The notes below the pieces were generated by a model. That model was not told the origin of the DNA. It did not search any database and saw nothing but the letters and a program-made list of their open reading frames with translations. This document shows positions 1,739-59,644 of a stretch of 64,000 nucleotides of DNA, in pieces (the stretch's first letter is position 1; each line of letters begins with the position of its first letter). The DNA is taken from the NCBI GenBank assembly GCA_029289235.1, contig JARFTZ010000057.1, positions 1 to 64,000 of the forward strand. The letters run 5' to 3'. The stretch is from Gammaproteobacteria bacterium. Lineage in GTDB: Bacteria > Pseudomonadota > Gammaproteobacteria > Burkholderiales > Rhodocyclaceae. The position numbers and the translations under genes were made by a program.

Positions 1739-1867
1739 ATGGGAAAAACACATGAGTCTAGTAAAGAGGCCAAGAAACAGGCCTTGAAGAACCCTAAAGA
1801 GAAAAGAGCGGCAAAACGCGCCAAAAAACACGGAGCAGGAAACGCACCTCTTATTGGACGCCAGTGA
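1739..1867 (+). CDS. Small lysine-rich protein (42 aa)
   Basis: The ORF track starts at 1607, but a strong ribosome-binding site (GGGAGG) lies just before the ATG at 1739, giving a 42-residue protein that begins MGKTHESSKEAKK. The sequence is extremely basic (many Lys and Arg), with no cysteine or membrane segment, and is expected to be disordered or nucleic-acid associated. Short proteins of this MGK-x-HES style occur as uncharacterised ORFs in proteobacteria (recollection, not a search). No operon partner is visible: the neighbouring Fic gene runs the other way. Function unknown. Confidence 0.6.
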   Translation: MGKTHESSKEAKKQALKNPKEKRAAKRAKKHGAGNAPLIGRQ

Positions 1868-2060
1868 GAGTAGCGGGCCGGTCAGATGGTCGCTAATCAG
1901 GGGCCATGTATCACAAGAGCCGCTGGTCACGAGGGCGTGATTTTGCAGTGCGGTTGATTCAGAGTAGCGCCCACCAAACGACTAGTGGAGACTATTTTGG
2001 CAACGGAGACAGTAAAGCGGGGAAGCCGCAATCCTCACGCTCTGGATGGCTCGTTGCGCT

Positions 2061-2240
2061 TTATTTTTGGAGGCATTGGCTTTTGGCCTCAAGCCAATAA
2101 ACGACATCCCCTACAACAGCGATGCTCCCCGACACCACAAATGTCGCTGCGGAAACCACGCCCGCCAGCACCAGCAGTTCCACGCACCCTTCATTGCGAC
2201 ATCCCGCAAAAGCCTCCACTTGGTTCGTCTGAAGCGTCAT
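2061..2240 (-). CDS. Small hypothetical membrane protein
   Basis: A 59-residue ORF from the ATG at 2240 (the track's longer version starts at 2273). The first third is polar with two cysteines; the remainder is a hydrophobic stretch (LLVLAGVVSAATFVVSGSIA) followed by VVYWLEAKSQC, compatible with one membrane segment and a short tail. It overlaps in another frame the 3' end of the lipoprotein-like ORF at 2191-2367, so the two may be translationally linked. There is no clear ribosome-binding site. Function unknown; kept because the composition is protein-like rather than random. Confidence 0.4.
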   Translation of the reverse strand: MTLQTNQVEAFAGCRNEGCVELLVLAGVVSAATFVVSGSIAVVGDVVYWLEAKSQCLQK

Positions 2241-2367
2241 GTGTCGCTTGATAATGCCGCACGCAGCGGTCATATTCTGACGTGGTCATGGGTAGGTAGA
2301 TACAGCTACACAACCCCACGGAGGCGGAAACCAGTACGAGTGAGAAAACCTTAGACCGGGAAGTCAT
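2191..2367 (-). CDS. Possible small lipoprotein (58 aa)
   Basis: Below the length cut of the ORF track. From the ATG at 2367 the translation begins MTSRSKVFSLVLVSASVGLC, which has the basic-hydrophobic pattern of a signal sequence. It then gives CSCIYLP, so the cysteines could serve as an approximate lipobox. The rest is short and polar and ends at TGA 2191-2193. Its 3' end overlaps the small membrane ORF at 2061-2240. Evidence is compositional only; a chance ORF remains possible. Confidence 0.35.
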   Translation of the reverse strand: MTSRSKVFSLVLVSASVGLCSCIYLPMTTSEYDRCVRHYQATHDASDEPSGGFCGMSQ

Positions 2368-2585
2368 GGCATTCGGGCCGTATTCTCAATCAACAAGAAG
2401 GAGAAGAGCAGAGAAGCCCAAAGCCAATCTCGATGGCCCGAGGGAGGTTGAACCTCTACAGAAAAGCGCCCAACGACGATCGCGCCTTCGTTCTCAGTGT
2501 AGACACGCCGTCAGAAGACCTCAATTCACGCTTGCCACACGACTCCTTGGCAATTCCGGGAGGAACGCACAAAAGGACAAGCGCC

Positions 2586-2858
2586 CTAACCCCTCCCGCG
2601 CGACACCCCGGCGACCTTGATCATGTAGACCGAAAACGCCCACAGGATGGCCCCGCCGAGTACCGGCAGTGGCTTGCCCTCGGAGGACAACAGCGCAATC
2701 GACCCCGAGCAGGCACAAAGCGCCGCCAACGCCCAGAGAATCCACTTGGTGACGCCCGCAAAGGCAGCCCTGCCGAATCGCCAGAGGAAGGCAACGAAGG
2801 CAATGGCCAGCAGCACCAGCATCGAGTATTTGGAAGATCCCACGCTGCCCCATCCCAT
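2586..2858 (-). CDS. Hypothetical multi-pass inner-membrane protein
   Basis: About 90 residues from the ATG at 2858; an upstream in-frame GTG (2867) is the alternative start. Three hydrophobic segments are visible: MLVLLAIAFVAFLW, ILWALAALCACSGSIALL and VLGGAILWAFSVYMI. The protein ends in a basic tail (GVSRGRG). It follows the tRNA(fMet) gene and its terminator on the same strand, so it probably needs its own promoter. No family recognised. Confidence 0.55.
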   Translation of the reverse strand: MGWGSVGSSKYSMLVLLAIAFVAFLWRFGRAAFAGVTKWILWALAALCACSGSIALLSSEGKPLPVLGGAILWAFSVYMIKVAGVSRGRG

Positions 2859-2875
2859 AGTGAACACCAGACAGC

Positions 2876-2900
2876 AAAAAGCCCACTCCGAAGAATGGGC
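2876..2900 (-). terminator. Rho-independent terminator after tRNA(fMet)
   Basis: On the minus strand the transcript forms an 8-bp stem, GCCCATTC / GAGTGGGC (one G-U pair), closed by a TTCG tetraloop and followed by TTTTT. It lies about 15 bp past the CCA end of the tRNA. Confidence 0.85.
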
Positions 2901-2915
2901 CGACTATTTGCTGTT

Positions 2916-2991
2916 TGGTTGCGGGGACAGGACTTGAACCTGTGACCTTCGGGTTATGAGCCCGACGAGCTGCCAACTGCTCCACCCCGCG
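2916..2991 (-). tRNA. tRNA-fMet (CAT), initiator
   Basis: The reverse complement begins CGCGGGGTGGAGCAG and ends CCCCGCAACCA, with the CCA encoded. Anticodon loop CTCATAA gives CAT. The first base C opposite A72 (mismatch) and the run of G-C pairs at the base of the anticodon stem (GGG / CCC) are the hallmarks of bacterial initiator tRNA. Total 76 nt including CCA. Terminators lie on both sides. Confidence 0.93.
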
Positions 2992-3018
2992 CCCGATAAA
3001 AACGGAAAGCTTCAAAGC

Positions 3019-3044
3019 AAAACGCCAACCCAAGAGGATTGGCG
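3019..3044 (-). terminator. Rho-independent terminator upstream of tRNA(fMet)
   Basis: Minus-strand stem CGCCAATCC / GGGTTGGCG (9 bp with one G-U), loop TCTT, then TTTT. It follows the tRNA/tmRNA-like 3' end at 3062, as expected for a transcript ending there. Confidence 0.75.
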
Positions 3045-3061
3045 TCATTGCTTGATATTTT

Positions 3062-3157
3062 TGGTGGCGGAAACGGGAACCGAACCCGCGTCCGCTTGCT
3101 GATCCAGATAGTAACGCCTCGGCCTTGAGGGCGTCGATTCGATGATTTGGCCGGAGG
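3062..3157 (-). other. tRNA/tmRNA-like 3' end (possible ssrA remnant or attachment site)
   Basis: The minus strand reads GCGGACGCGGGTTCGG, then TTCCCGTTTCCGCCACCA: a T-arm (GCGGG, TTCGGTT loop, CCCGT) plus an acceptor 3' strand and encoded CCA. GGACGCGGGTTC is typical of tmRNA 3' ends. No matching D-arm/acceptor 5' half or proteolysis-tag reading frame was found upstream. Position 70 reads G where tmRNA-Ala needs U, so a functional tmRNA end is doubtful. Two hairpins (TTGGCC/GGCCAA and ACGCC/GGCGT) lie just upstream. Options: an integration scar, a degraded ssrA, or the acceptor part of a two-piece tmRNA. The 5' limit is arbitrary. Confidence 0.45.
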
Positions 3158-3278
3158 CGGCCAACGCGCGGGCACGCGTATCCCTGCTCAAAGCTCCACA
3201 TCCGCCCACCCTGGGCCTACTGGCTCACCTGATGAGCCTCCCTCCTTGGAAAATTCTTCGGAAATCAGCCATCTGTCA

Positions 3279-3307
3279 TTGCTGGTTTGAAAATTTTGCA
3301 CTATCCT
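3279..3307 (+). promoter_or_regulatory. Candidate sigma-70 promoter for the excisionase-type gene
   Basis: TTGCTG and TATCCT are separated by 17 bp, ending about 30 bp before the ATG at 3338. The surrounding sequence is AT-rich relative to its neighbourhood. Confidence 0.45.
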
Positions 3308-3337
3308 GTCGTGGTTTTCCCTAGATTGGCCATCACC

Positions 3338-3568
3338 ATGTCAACGAGTACCAGCGAAGGCGAGATCCTCACTATCAAGCAGGTCGCCGACTACCTGAAG
3401 GTCACCGAGCGGACGATCTACCGGCTGGCAGCGGCCAAGAAGATCCCGGCCTTCAAGGTCGGGGGGACGTGGCGGTTTTCGCGTGCGGACATCGACAGCT
3501 GGATCAAGCAGCAGTCATCGGTGGATCTAGGGGATGACAGCCATGACTCAGCGAAAGTTGGGCGGTGA
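3338..3568 (+). CDS. Excisionase-family (helix-turn-helix) DNA-binding protein
   Basis: 76 residues from the ATG at 3338 (the track's start at 3287 is upstream and less likely). It contains the full MerR-like/excisionase fold signature: ILTIKQVADYLKVTERTIYR followed by KIPAFKVGGTWRFSRADIDSW. Such proteins bind DNA, either as recombination directionality factors or, as often with this exact type, as small regulators at the head of an accessory operon. The stop is 2 bp before the ATG of the next gene fragment (3571), so they formed an operon. Its sequence is intact although the downstream gene is broken. Confidence 0.8.
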   Translation: MSTSTSEGEILTIKQVADYLKVTERTIYRLAAAKKIPAFKVGGTWRFSRADIDSWIKQQSSVDLGDDSHDSAKVGR

Positions 3569-3570
3569 CC

Positions 3571-3705
3571 ATGAAGCTGATCCACAACACCGGCGCAGAT
3601 CGAGTCATCGATCTGATGCGCCCGCACCTCAAACACGGCTACCTGCCAATGGGTCATCGTGTCGTGCAATGTCGATGGAACTTGCCAAGGCATATCCCCA
3701 GGTAA
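3571..3705 (+). pseudogene. 5' fragment of the gene following the excisionase-type gene
   Basis: Starts MKLIHNTGADRVIDLMRPHL with a plausible ribosome-binding region (GGGCGG) and then loses sense near 3640-3650. Beyond that the DNA codes on the opposite strand for an unrelated protein. The N-terminal sequence resembles starts I associate with large PLD-like/helicase proteins encoded directly after excisionase-type genes; that is recollection, so the family call is tentative. About 25 native codons survive and the rest of the ORF to TAA 3705 is read-through into foreign sequence. Confidence 0.5.
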
Positions 3706-4527
3706 CGAGCCCGAATAGGTACATGCCCGGAATAACTCCTCTGAAAGATCGTGCCCCTCCGGTAGGACGCTGACTAGTTTTTGGATCAGTCCGAGAGATT
3801 TGCGGCGTTCCCCACCTTCTTCACCGAAGCGTTTGGCTGTGTCGAAAAAAATGCTCCGCAAGGTCTCGCACTCGGCCTGGCTCGCTGCAAGATTACAAGC
3901 GCAAAACGGGCTGAGCGCATCCAAGTCTTCCAACGTCACAGTATCGGACACCACGCTCGCCCAGAAGTGATCGCCCGGGACGGCAGTGTCGACGGCCTCC
4001 GCCAATGGTGCGCCATGCTCTTTGGTGTAGCGAAACCAGGGACGGGTCGATGAATCCATCAGACCCAATTCCGCCAGTGTTCCGGCGTAGTACTGGCCGA
4101 GTCCGCCCAATTGGTTCTTGAAGTATCGGTGGGTAGAGTCTTGTGCAGTGTAGTGAGAAAGCAGGAGGGCTTGGCCGTTTTCGAGGCGATCAAGTGCGCT
4201 TAGTAGCTGGATGCGCCCGACCATGGCGGCACCGTGACGTTCATTGTCGTTGTCTGTTCGACGTGCGTGCCGTTCTGCAATGAGCGTGAGCAGGCAATCG
4301 GCGCGGCGGAAGTACTCAACGAATAGCGCAGCATCTTCTTTCGAGTAACGTCGGTCGTAGGACCAGACAATCCACGGATAGAGTGAGTAGTAACGAGCAC
4401 GATCGGTAACGTTGGTGATGCCTGGAAGCAGTTGCCCGTAGATAAGCAGACATGGGGCCTGTGTGCCAAGATGGTCAAGGCCCCCTATGGCTGTCGGGGG
4501 CGTTAGCCAAGAAGTCTCGATTCTCAT
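3646..4527 (-). pseudogene. Unknown protein, C-terminus lost at a recombination junction
   Basis: From the ATG at 4527 a coherent protein of about 290 residues runs to around 3646 (for example RARYYSLYPWIVWSYDRRY, GGLGQYYAGTLAELGL). Downstream of that, the same frame is merely antisense of the excisionase-type operon, so the 369-residue track ORF is a chimera. Visible character: soluble, rich in aromatic residues, no membrane segment, no nucleotide-binding motif. I do not recognise the family. Position beside an excisionase-type gene and tRNA genes suggests cargo of a lost mobile or defence island. Confidence 0.6.
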
Positions 4528-4860
4528 GTGATTAACCAGCCTATTTTTGTTTTCGCTAAGCTATTCGTGCGACCTCGAAATGCTAATTGAATCTCCAATG
4601 TTTTGCTTGGGAACCGAAAGACATACCCATGTCCGCGTTGTGGCTTTTTTTGCCCAAGTCGCCAATGTAAGGCAGTTTCCGTGACGAACAAGCAGGCGGA
4701 AACCCGCATTATTGCTTGAGGGGGCGCGACGGCGTCCTTCGCAGAAACAGAGAATGGGTGGGAACAGAGAGCGGAAAACCACCCGAAACGGGGTGCTCCT
4801 GGGCGGCGACGTCCGTCGCAGCGAGGCCCGAACCCGCGCCAATACTGGGAAAAACGGGCG
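4528..4860. other. Gene-poor interval
   Basis: No convincing gene. ORFs here (4561-4872 minus, 4712-4894 plus) are short, arginine-rich or overlap the tRNA terminator, and lack ribosome-binding sites. Base composition is mixed, the left half AT-richer than the core genome. Likely the eroded edge of the accessory region. Confidence 0.5.
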
Positions 4861-4892
4861 AAAAAAAACCAACCGAGAACGGTTGGTTTTTT
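4861..4892 (-). terminator. Terminator after tRNA-Met (bidirectional form)
   Basis: AACCAACCG / CGGTTGGTT stem with loop AGAA, flanked by an A run on one side and a T run on the other. It lies 7 bp beyond the CCA end of the minus-strand tRNA. Confidence 0.85.
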
Positions 4893-4898
4893 GAATAG

Positions 4899-4975
4899 TG
4901 GTGGTGATGGGCAGAATTGAACTGCCGACCTATGGGTTATGAATCCATCGCTCTAACCAACTGAGCTACATCACC
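4899..4975 (-). tRNA. tRNA-Met (CAT), elongator type
   Basis: The reverse complement starts GGTGATGTAGCTCAGTTGG and ends CATCACCACCA with encoded CCA, 77 nt. The anticodon loop TTCATAA gives CAT. The acceptor stem GGTGATG/CATCACC is fully paired, unlike the initiator at 2916-2991. Because CAT is also used by tRNA-Ile2 (after lysidine modification), identity as Met rather than Ile2 is inferred. Confidence 0.85.

Positions 4976-56938: not shown

Positions 56939-59644
<2,706 letters not shown>

Follow-up and report, generated by a model that had tools for sequence, protein, structure and literature searches.

A tRNA-tail mimic as the probable attachment-site end of a small, decayed cassette behind a tRNA-Met gene

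Layout of the locus

The window analysed here is the whole 64,000-nucleotide stretch at the start of contig JARFTZ010000057.1 (Rhodocyclaceae, assembly GCA_029289235.1; genome G000). On its minus strand, positions 3062–3157 read ...AGCGGACGCGGGTTCGGTTCCCGTTTCCGCCACCA and then enter a hairpin terminator at ~3043–3018. The part at 3093–3062(−), GGACGCGGGTTCGGTTCCCGTTTCCGCCACCA, combines a tRNA/tmRNA-type T-arm, CCA and terminator without a 5′ half and without a tag ORF, as a preliminary description of this DNA had accurately reported; the feature is real, but the conserved unit is larger than was noted there, 3093–3062(−) being the final 34 nt of a 94-nt conserved element at 3155–3062. The features of the locus are:

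3012–3061, minus strand: displaced native tRNA-Met terminator (B′ side), matching the post-CCA sequence of unoccupied relatives and now 1.8 kb from its tRNA
3062–3086, minus strand: tRNA-tail mimic, 25 nt from the T-loop GTTC to CCACCA, loop TTCGGTT, G at position 58
3062–3155, minus strand: conserved right end of the mobile cassette (P end, probable attR half), GGCCAAATCATCGAATC... CTCAAGGCC...GGCGTTACTATCTGG...GCGGACGCGGGTTCGGTTCCCGTTTCCGCCACCA, placed by model R1 (100.5 bits) and homologues
3338–3568, plus strand: HTH_17 (excisionase-type) regulator gene (Pfam PF12728, E=7e-20)
3571–3707, plus strand: short 5′ gene remnant (MKLIHNTGADRVIDLMRPHLKHGYLPMGH...), read from the sequence, ending at a deletion joint near 3.63 kb
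3630–4527, minus strand: truncated cargo gene, a 369-aa ORF (4527–3418) with homology to known proteins only over about its first 300 codons
4742–4898, minus strand: cassette left end (P′ side, outer limit approximate), with its own terminator, a second hairpin (CCCAGTATTGGCGCGGG) and an CTCTCTGTTC motif
4899–4975, minus strand: intact target gene tRNA-Met (CAT), ending in CACCACCA

A short direct repeat, CCACCA, lies at both joints (4904–4899 and 3067–3062). Residues 1–300 of the cargo protein are 62.7% identical to a protein on an Undibacterium plasmid, the closest relative found, residues 21–180 distantly resemble the cargo protein of locus L064, and the protein has no Pfam or PADLOC match. 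The HTH_17 gene also adjoins the element in L026 (G015) and L063 (G317) by blastn, and plasmids carry a short HTH-region match beside it. A conserved stretch (GAAAATTTTGCACTATCCTGTCG) upstream of this gene (window 3285–3320) recurs in distant genomes (L019 1728–1760, L016 1501–1528 and L063 at ~9341), and may be a promoter or operator of defence-linked HTH_17 regulators.

Comparison with tRNA and tmRNA

ARAGORN placed no tRNA or tmRNA at 3062–3157, its only calls in the window being two CAT tRNA-Met genes (2916–2991 and 4899–4975), and Rfam at curated thresholds made no call at the tail feature. A permissive Rfam scan with the tmRNA models RF00023, RF01850 and RF04321 stayed below the gathering cut-off (13.9 bits for tmRNA and 16.8 bits for permuted tmRNA, cut-off 47), and the feature shows neither a cloverleaf with a 5′ half nor A58 in its T-loop. 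A complete tRNA whose acceptor stem would pair with GGCGGAT upstream, near 3206, was considered and rejected: the long fold does not surpass those of shuffled sequences (z −0.21) and the region is unconserved. The likeness to tmRNA arose because the first 14 nt of the element (GCGGACGCGGGTTC) are identical to a one-piece ssrA 3′ end (L076).

The genome holds one intact ssrA, found on another contig, a permuted two-piece beta-tmRNA (C11:11604–11941, 285 bits, tag ANDERFALAA) whose acceptor end (GGACGCGGGTTCGACTCCCGCCACCTCCACC) is unlike the window feature. The preliminary description had proposed either an integration scar in ssrA or a diverged two-piece tmRNA fragment. For the latter, the lineage does use a two-piece permuted tmRNA and the permuted model gives its weak 16.8-bit score here, but the genome's own molecule is intact elsewhere, no coding piece exists at the feature and the feature's homologues are mobile ends, which leaves this reading a probability close to nil. 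By the refuting condition that the preliminary description had itself set, a complete ssrA with a differing 3′ end together with sub-threshold covariance scores, both ssrA readings fail; the scar itself stood, and its true target is the tRNA-Met gene at 4899–4975. Beside the intact two-piece ssrA (3605–3942 of L010, on C11), a long ORF which by eye resembles a phage-type tyrosine integrase (1751–3529(−)) abuts its 5′ side, so the ssrA locus may border a separate island.

Extent and spread of the 94-nt element

Partial matches to the region in three relatives' genomes extend to 92 nt upstream of the CCA, and model R1, built from four element copies, matched 32 of the 299 genomes of the family, with more than 20 full-length matches at E≤1e-15. 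Full-length matches in other genomes reached E-values of 1e-16 to 1e-26, a recurrence far beyond chance. No second copy of the feature was present in the window's own genome with up to 3 mismatches allowed. The sequence on either side of the element varies from locus to locus, and four of the 299 genomes carry two copies in tandem, on the same strand and 1.4–2.0 kb apart. Nearly all copies have the T-loop TTCGGTT or TTCAGTT. In three tandem or array copies the tail is shortened (L062 8163–8230, L069 9355–9420 and L061 10602–10540) and is followed by a GTGGACAAATGGCCGAAACGGTGGACTTTCGGCC sequence, which resembles a diverged second copy of the left motif or an IS end.

An exact search with the 34-nt consensus returned 32 named contigs from beta-, gamma- and alphaproteobacteria, Geobacteraceae and Desulfovibrionaceae, some of these being metagenome bins that are possibly mis-assigned; isolates among them are Nitratidesulfovibrio oxamicus, Tahibacter aquaticus, Gulbenkiania mobilis and Extensimonas. 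The query was the tail only, and in 28 of the 32 contigs the complete 94-nt element is present at >68 bits. The element is nonetheless uncommon outside the family, since only 2 of the 399 genomes in an evenly drawn phylum sample have it, the window's genome included, and the E. coli genomes searched gave no match.

Targets and empty sites

Wherever the contig reaches far enough, an intact gene for a tRNA or tmRNA, with CCACCA at its end, lies upstream of the element on the same strand:

ssrA: L064 and L076
tRNA-Phe: L063, L066, L078 and L079, and the complete genome G131, where it lies ~60 kb away
tRNA-Met: L077 and the window
tRNA-Ala: L141

The left ends that directly follow these target genes share a terminator, a second hairpin (CCAGTNNTGGCG) and an CCTCTCTGTTCTC motif, and in tandem cases the same kind of left end follows the element's own CCACCA. 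In several genomes the left and right cassette ends could not be joined on one contig.

An empty-site comparison used relatives in which the same miaB-linked tRNA-Met gene is unoccupied, where the native terminator directly follows the CCA. In five of these (L095, L096, L088, L099 and L086) the post-CCA sequence matches window 3061–3012, with scores of 48, 40, 37, 36 and 28 that none of 300 shuffles reached. In the occupied relatives L081, L082 and L094 the post-CCA sequence instead matches the window from 4898 downwards, after its own tRNA-Met (scores 62, 42 and 39); the left end at 4742–4898 is thus common to these three occupied targets, and also to the left end of phage AcaML1. Because the comparison places the terminator after the element's CCA, an element of ~1.8 kb lies between the tRNA-Met gene and its terminator, which bears out the earlier prediction of an element to the right, at 3.1–4.9 kb. 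The arrangement is that of tDNA integration, with an intact target on one side and the native downstream sequence displaced behind the other end. The comparison shows a cassette whose left end brings its own terminator while the host's native one ends up behind the right end, and the target tRNA stays intact because the left end supplies that terminator. It also shows that elements of this family bear the same 94-nt right end, which imitates a tRNA from the T-loop to CCACCA.

We therefore read the feature, with a probability of roughly 90%, as attR, the outer half of the attachment site, of a small and decayed cassette that lacks a recombinase and was inserted where the tRNA-Met gene (4975–4899) ends in CCA. 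A classical displaced fragment, in which the element split ssrA or another gene and the feature is the original 3′ end, would account for the T-arm, CCA and terminator and for the 14 nt equal to one-piece ssrA, and the right end in L076 does carry a real ssrA 3′ end. It is refuted by the target-independence of the consensus: the same 3′ end stands behind tRNA-Phe, tRNA-Met, tRNA-Ala and ssrA, in plasmids and in a phage. Moreover, the feature is unique in its genome, lacks a match to the genome's ssrA and matches tRNA-Met only in GTTC and CCACCA, and we consider this explanation most improbable. The feature is a mimic brought by the element; it did not arise by displacement of the target's 3′ end. 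The base at which crossover occurs is not fixed, as the real ssrA 3′ end carried by the right end in L076 places that exchange upstream of the CCA.

The terminator behind the window element also precedes fMet in another genome (G009 C15, L015 960–1030), there following a hairpin, GGTGG...CCACCACTA, which may represent another kind of element end.

Probably a DNA site rather than an RNA

The distance from T-loop to CCACCA is 25 nt in the element and in the target tRNA and tmRNA genes alike. Position 58 of the T-loop is an A in real tRNAs, and in the element it is a G, rarely otherwise. Across 55 distinct copies, stem pairing was 72.2% against 71.7% with shuffled partners, and few pairs had changed on both sides. 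The 25-nt tail spacing, the missing A58 and the lack of covariation beyond shuffles together fit an RNA less well than a DNA site for a recombinase that recognises tRNA tails. A working small RNA gene would consist of a promoter-like TTACTAT box, a CCA-ended tRNA-like minihelix and a terminator. In its favour are the box and terminator that flank the hairpin, the 10–12 bp hairpins into which the four founder copies fold and a compensated stem in L027. Against it stand the pairing statistics, the T-loop, flanking sequences that are different at each locus and a terminator that is part of the neighbouring DNA, so that we regard such a gene as quite improbable.

For the recombinase-recognised site we propose that a large serine recombinase of the gp3 type (described below), with small gp2/gp1-like partners, would recognise tRNA and tmRNA tails and exchange strands within or next to CCACCA, the tail mimic serving it as an attP half-site. 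The next element could insert behind the mimic and build a tandem array, because the mimic is itself a tRNA-like tail, and cassettes lacking a recombinase would move with that of another element.

Phage AcaML1, plasmids and candidate recombinases

The right end of the Acidithiobacillus caldus phage AcaML1 (JX507079) is the 94-nt element (59271–59359 of 59363, 88.8% identity). The record starts with CCACCATTTACCC... and has the left-end pattern of the cassettes (terminator, second hairpin and CTCTCTGTTC motif). AcaML1 is reported to be an inducible temperate phage integrated in ssrA with 10-bp repeats (PMC3826726). Two small proteins and gp3, a large serine recombinase (Pfam Resolvase, Recombinase and Zn-ribbon), are encoded at its left end. 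Homologues of gp3 adjoin such ends in L141, a compact element at tRNA-Ala, and in L162, L159 and L062. Of the 299 genomes, 16 of the 32 with the element have a gp3 homologue, as do 32 of the 267 without it (Fisher p=1.7e-6), a p-value that is optimistic because the counted species genomes are related. On this co-occurrence, gp3 is the likely type of recombinase acting on the element. The enzyme responsible is not certain: at E≤1e-50, half of the element-bearing genomes, that of the window included, lack a gp3 homologue, and five genomes have a second serine recombinase family, with ParB-like partners, located 2.3–3.6 kb inward from the element end and in every case reading away from it. As sole enzyme the ParB-linked family was rejected, its genome association being weak (p ~0.03) and AcaML1 carrying the gp3 type.

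IncP-6-type plasmids also carry the 94-nt element. In IncP-typed plasmids (pRSB105 and relatives) it stands at 95.6% identity beside an HTH/'excisionase' gene and variable cargo, with resistance genes nearby in pRSB105 and heat-resistance genes in NZ_CP091085. The plasmid copies are:

DQ839391.1: 17564–17654
NZ_CP091085.1: 12654–12744
NZ_AP021919.1
NZ_AP022019.1

The window copy shares with AcaML1 the 94-nt right end, the left-end layout with its terminator and CCACCA at the joint, yet AcaML1, a phage of 59 kb, encodes a recombinase and is integrated in ssrA with repeats of 10 bp (PMC3826726), whereas the window copy is a 1.8-kb remnant in tRNA-Met that lacks a recombinase. It has both ends of an AcaML1-type element and lacks a large serine recombinase of its own, and is thus only a non-autonomous or decayed member of these serine-recombinase elements: its genome encodes neither a gp3 homologue nor a ParB-linked serine recombinase, so this copy is non-autonomous or dead. 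It is probably stranded, since a deletion fused its cargo remnants and the genome has no recombinase of the gp3 type.

Relation to known systems

In common with cis-mobilizable elements (CIMEs) and accretion at tDNA, these cassettes have two attachment sites that enclose cargo, lack a recombinase gene and accrete in tandem. CIMEs are usually described for conjugative elements, whereas here phage defence makes up most of the cargo and the same end recurs in several bacterial classes. tDNA islands in general are well known, and those of tyrosine integrases resemble the present element in inserting at tRNA or tmRNA genes, restoring an intact target and leaving a tRNA-like far piece; in them, however, the far piece is the target's own displaced 3′ end (Islander, PMC4383910). 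The far piece of the present element is a mimic that the element itself brings, whatever the target, and the likely enzyme is a serine recombinase.

A close precedent is the ssrA-specific islands of Dehalococcoides, which have a serine recombinase, stand in tandem, lack recombinase genes in about half of cases and were proposed to be cis-mobilizable (PMC3146451). Tandem serine-recombinase islands at ssrA with recombinase-less members are thus already known, and further likenesses are the use of the ssrA 3′ end and a conserved motif beside the repeat. Those islands differ in inserting in mid-T-loop, with a 20-bp ssrA copy, at one target gene (PMC3146451), while the element described here would exchange at the CCA end, uses several tRNA genes and bears its own tail mimic. 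In the literature searched, which covered few subscription papers, we found no description of a target-independent tail mimic common to a phage, plasmids and defence cassettes at several tRNA genes.

The mimic suggests a route by which one recombinase could use many tRNA targets, reading only the features common to all tails (T-loop and CCACCA); as insertion is at the very end of the tRNA gene, there is no target sequence to restore.

Cargo of related cassettes

Defence, toxin–antitoxin, Fic or metal-efflux cargo sits between targets and elements. PADLOC profiles matched a Type III methyltransferase and a DrmD-like helicase in L026, DUF1156/DUF499 in L027, TmtA-like and UvrD-like proteins in L028 and an HKD+Snf2 helicase in L068, with further matches to AbiL-like (L062), AbiEii (L073) and Fic (L060) proteins, and ORF sequences point to metal-efflux genes near the element in G131, L071 and L074. 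The same cassette can be nearly identical in different families: that of L028 (G032) is 96% identical over 6.7 kb in G557. Many cassettes appear to consist of cargo only, mostly phage defence, and would need a recombinase from another element. Because most lack a recombinase gene they are hard to see for integrase-based island finders, and the 94-nt mimic offers a sequence tag for the exact boundary of a mobile cassette. Through it, a single mode of movement connects phage-defence operons, toxin–antitoxin pairs, Fic genes and metal-efflux operons.

More tentatively, and with the balance of probability still against it, the whole may amount to an integron-like traffic in which one serine-recombinase family recognises tRNA tails in general, moving tandem, recombinase-less and largely defence-bearing cassettes behind several tRNA and tmRNA genes, with the 94-nt mimic as their shared tag across phages, plasmids and several bacterial classes.

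Near the contig start, the window also encodes a Fic/DUF4172 gene (311–1444(−)). In L060 and L066 close relatives of this gene form cassettes that the 94-nt element closes, and a second cassette may thus begin after the fMet gene at 2916–2991.
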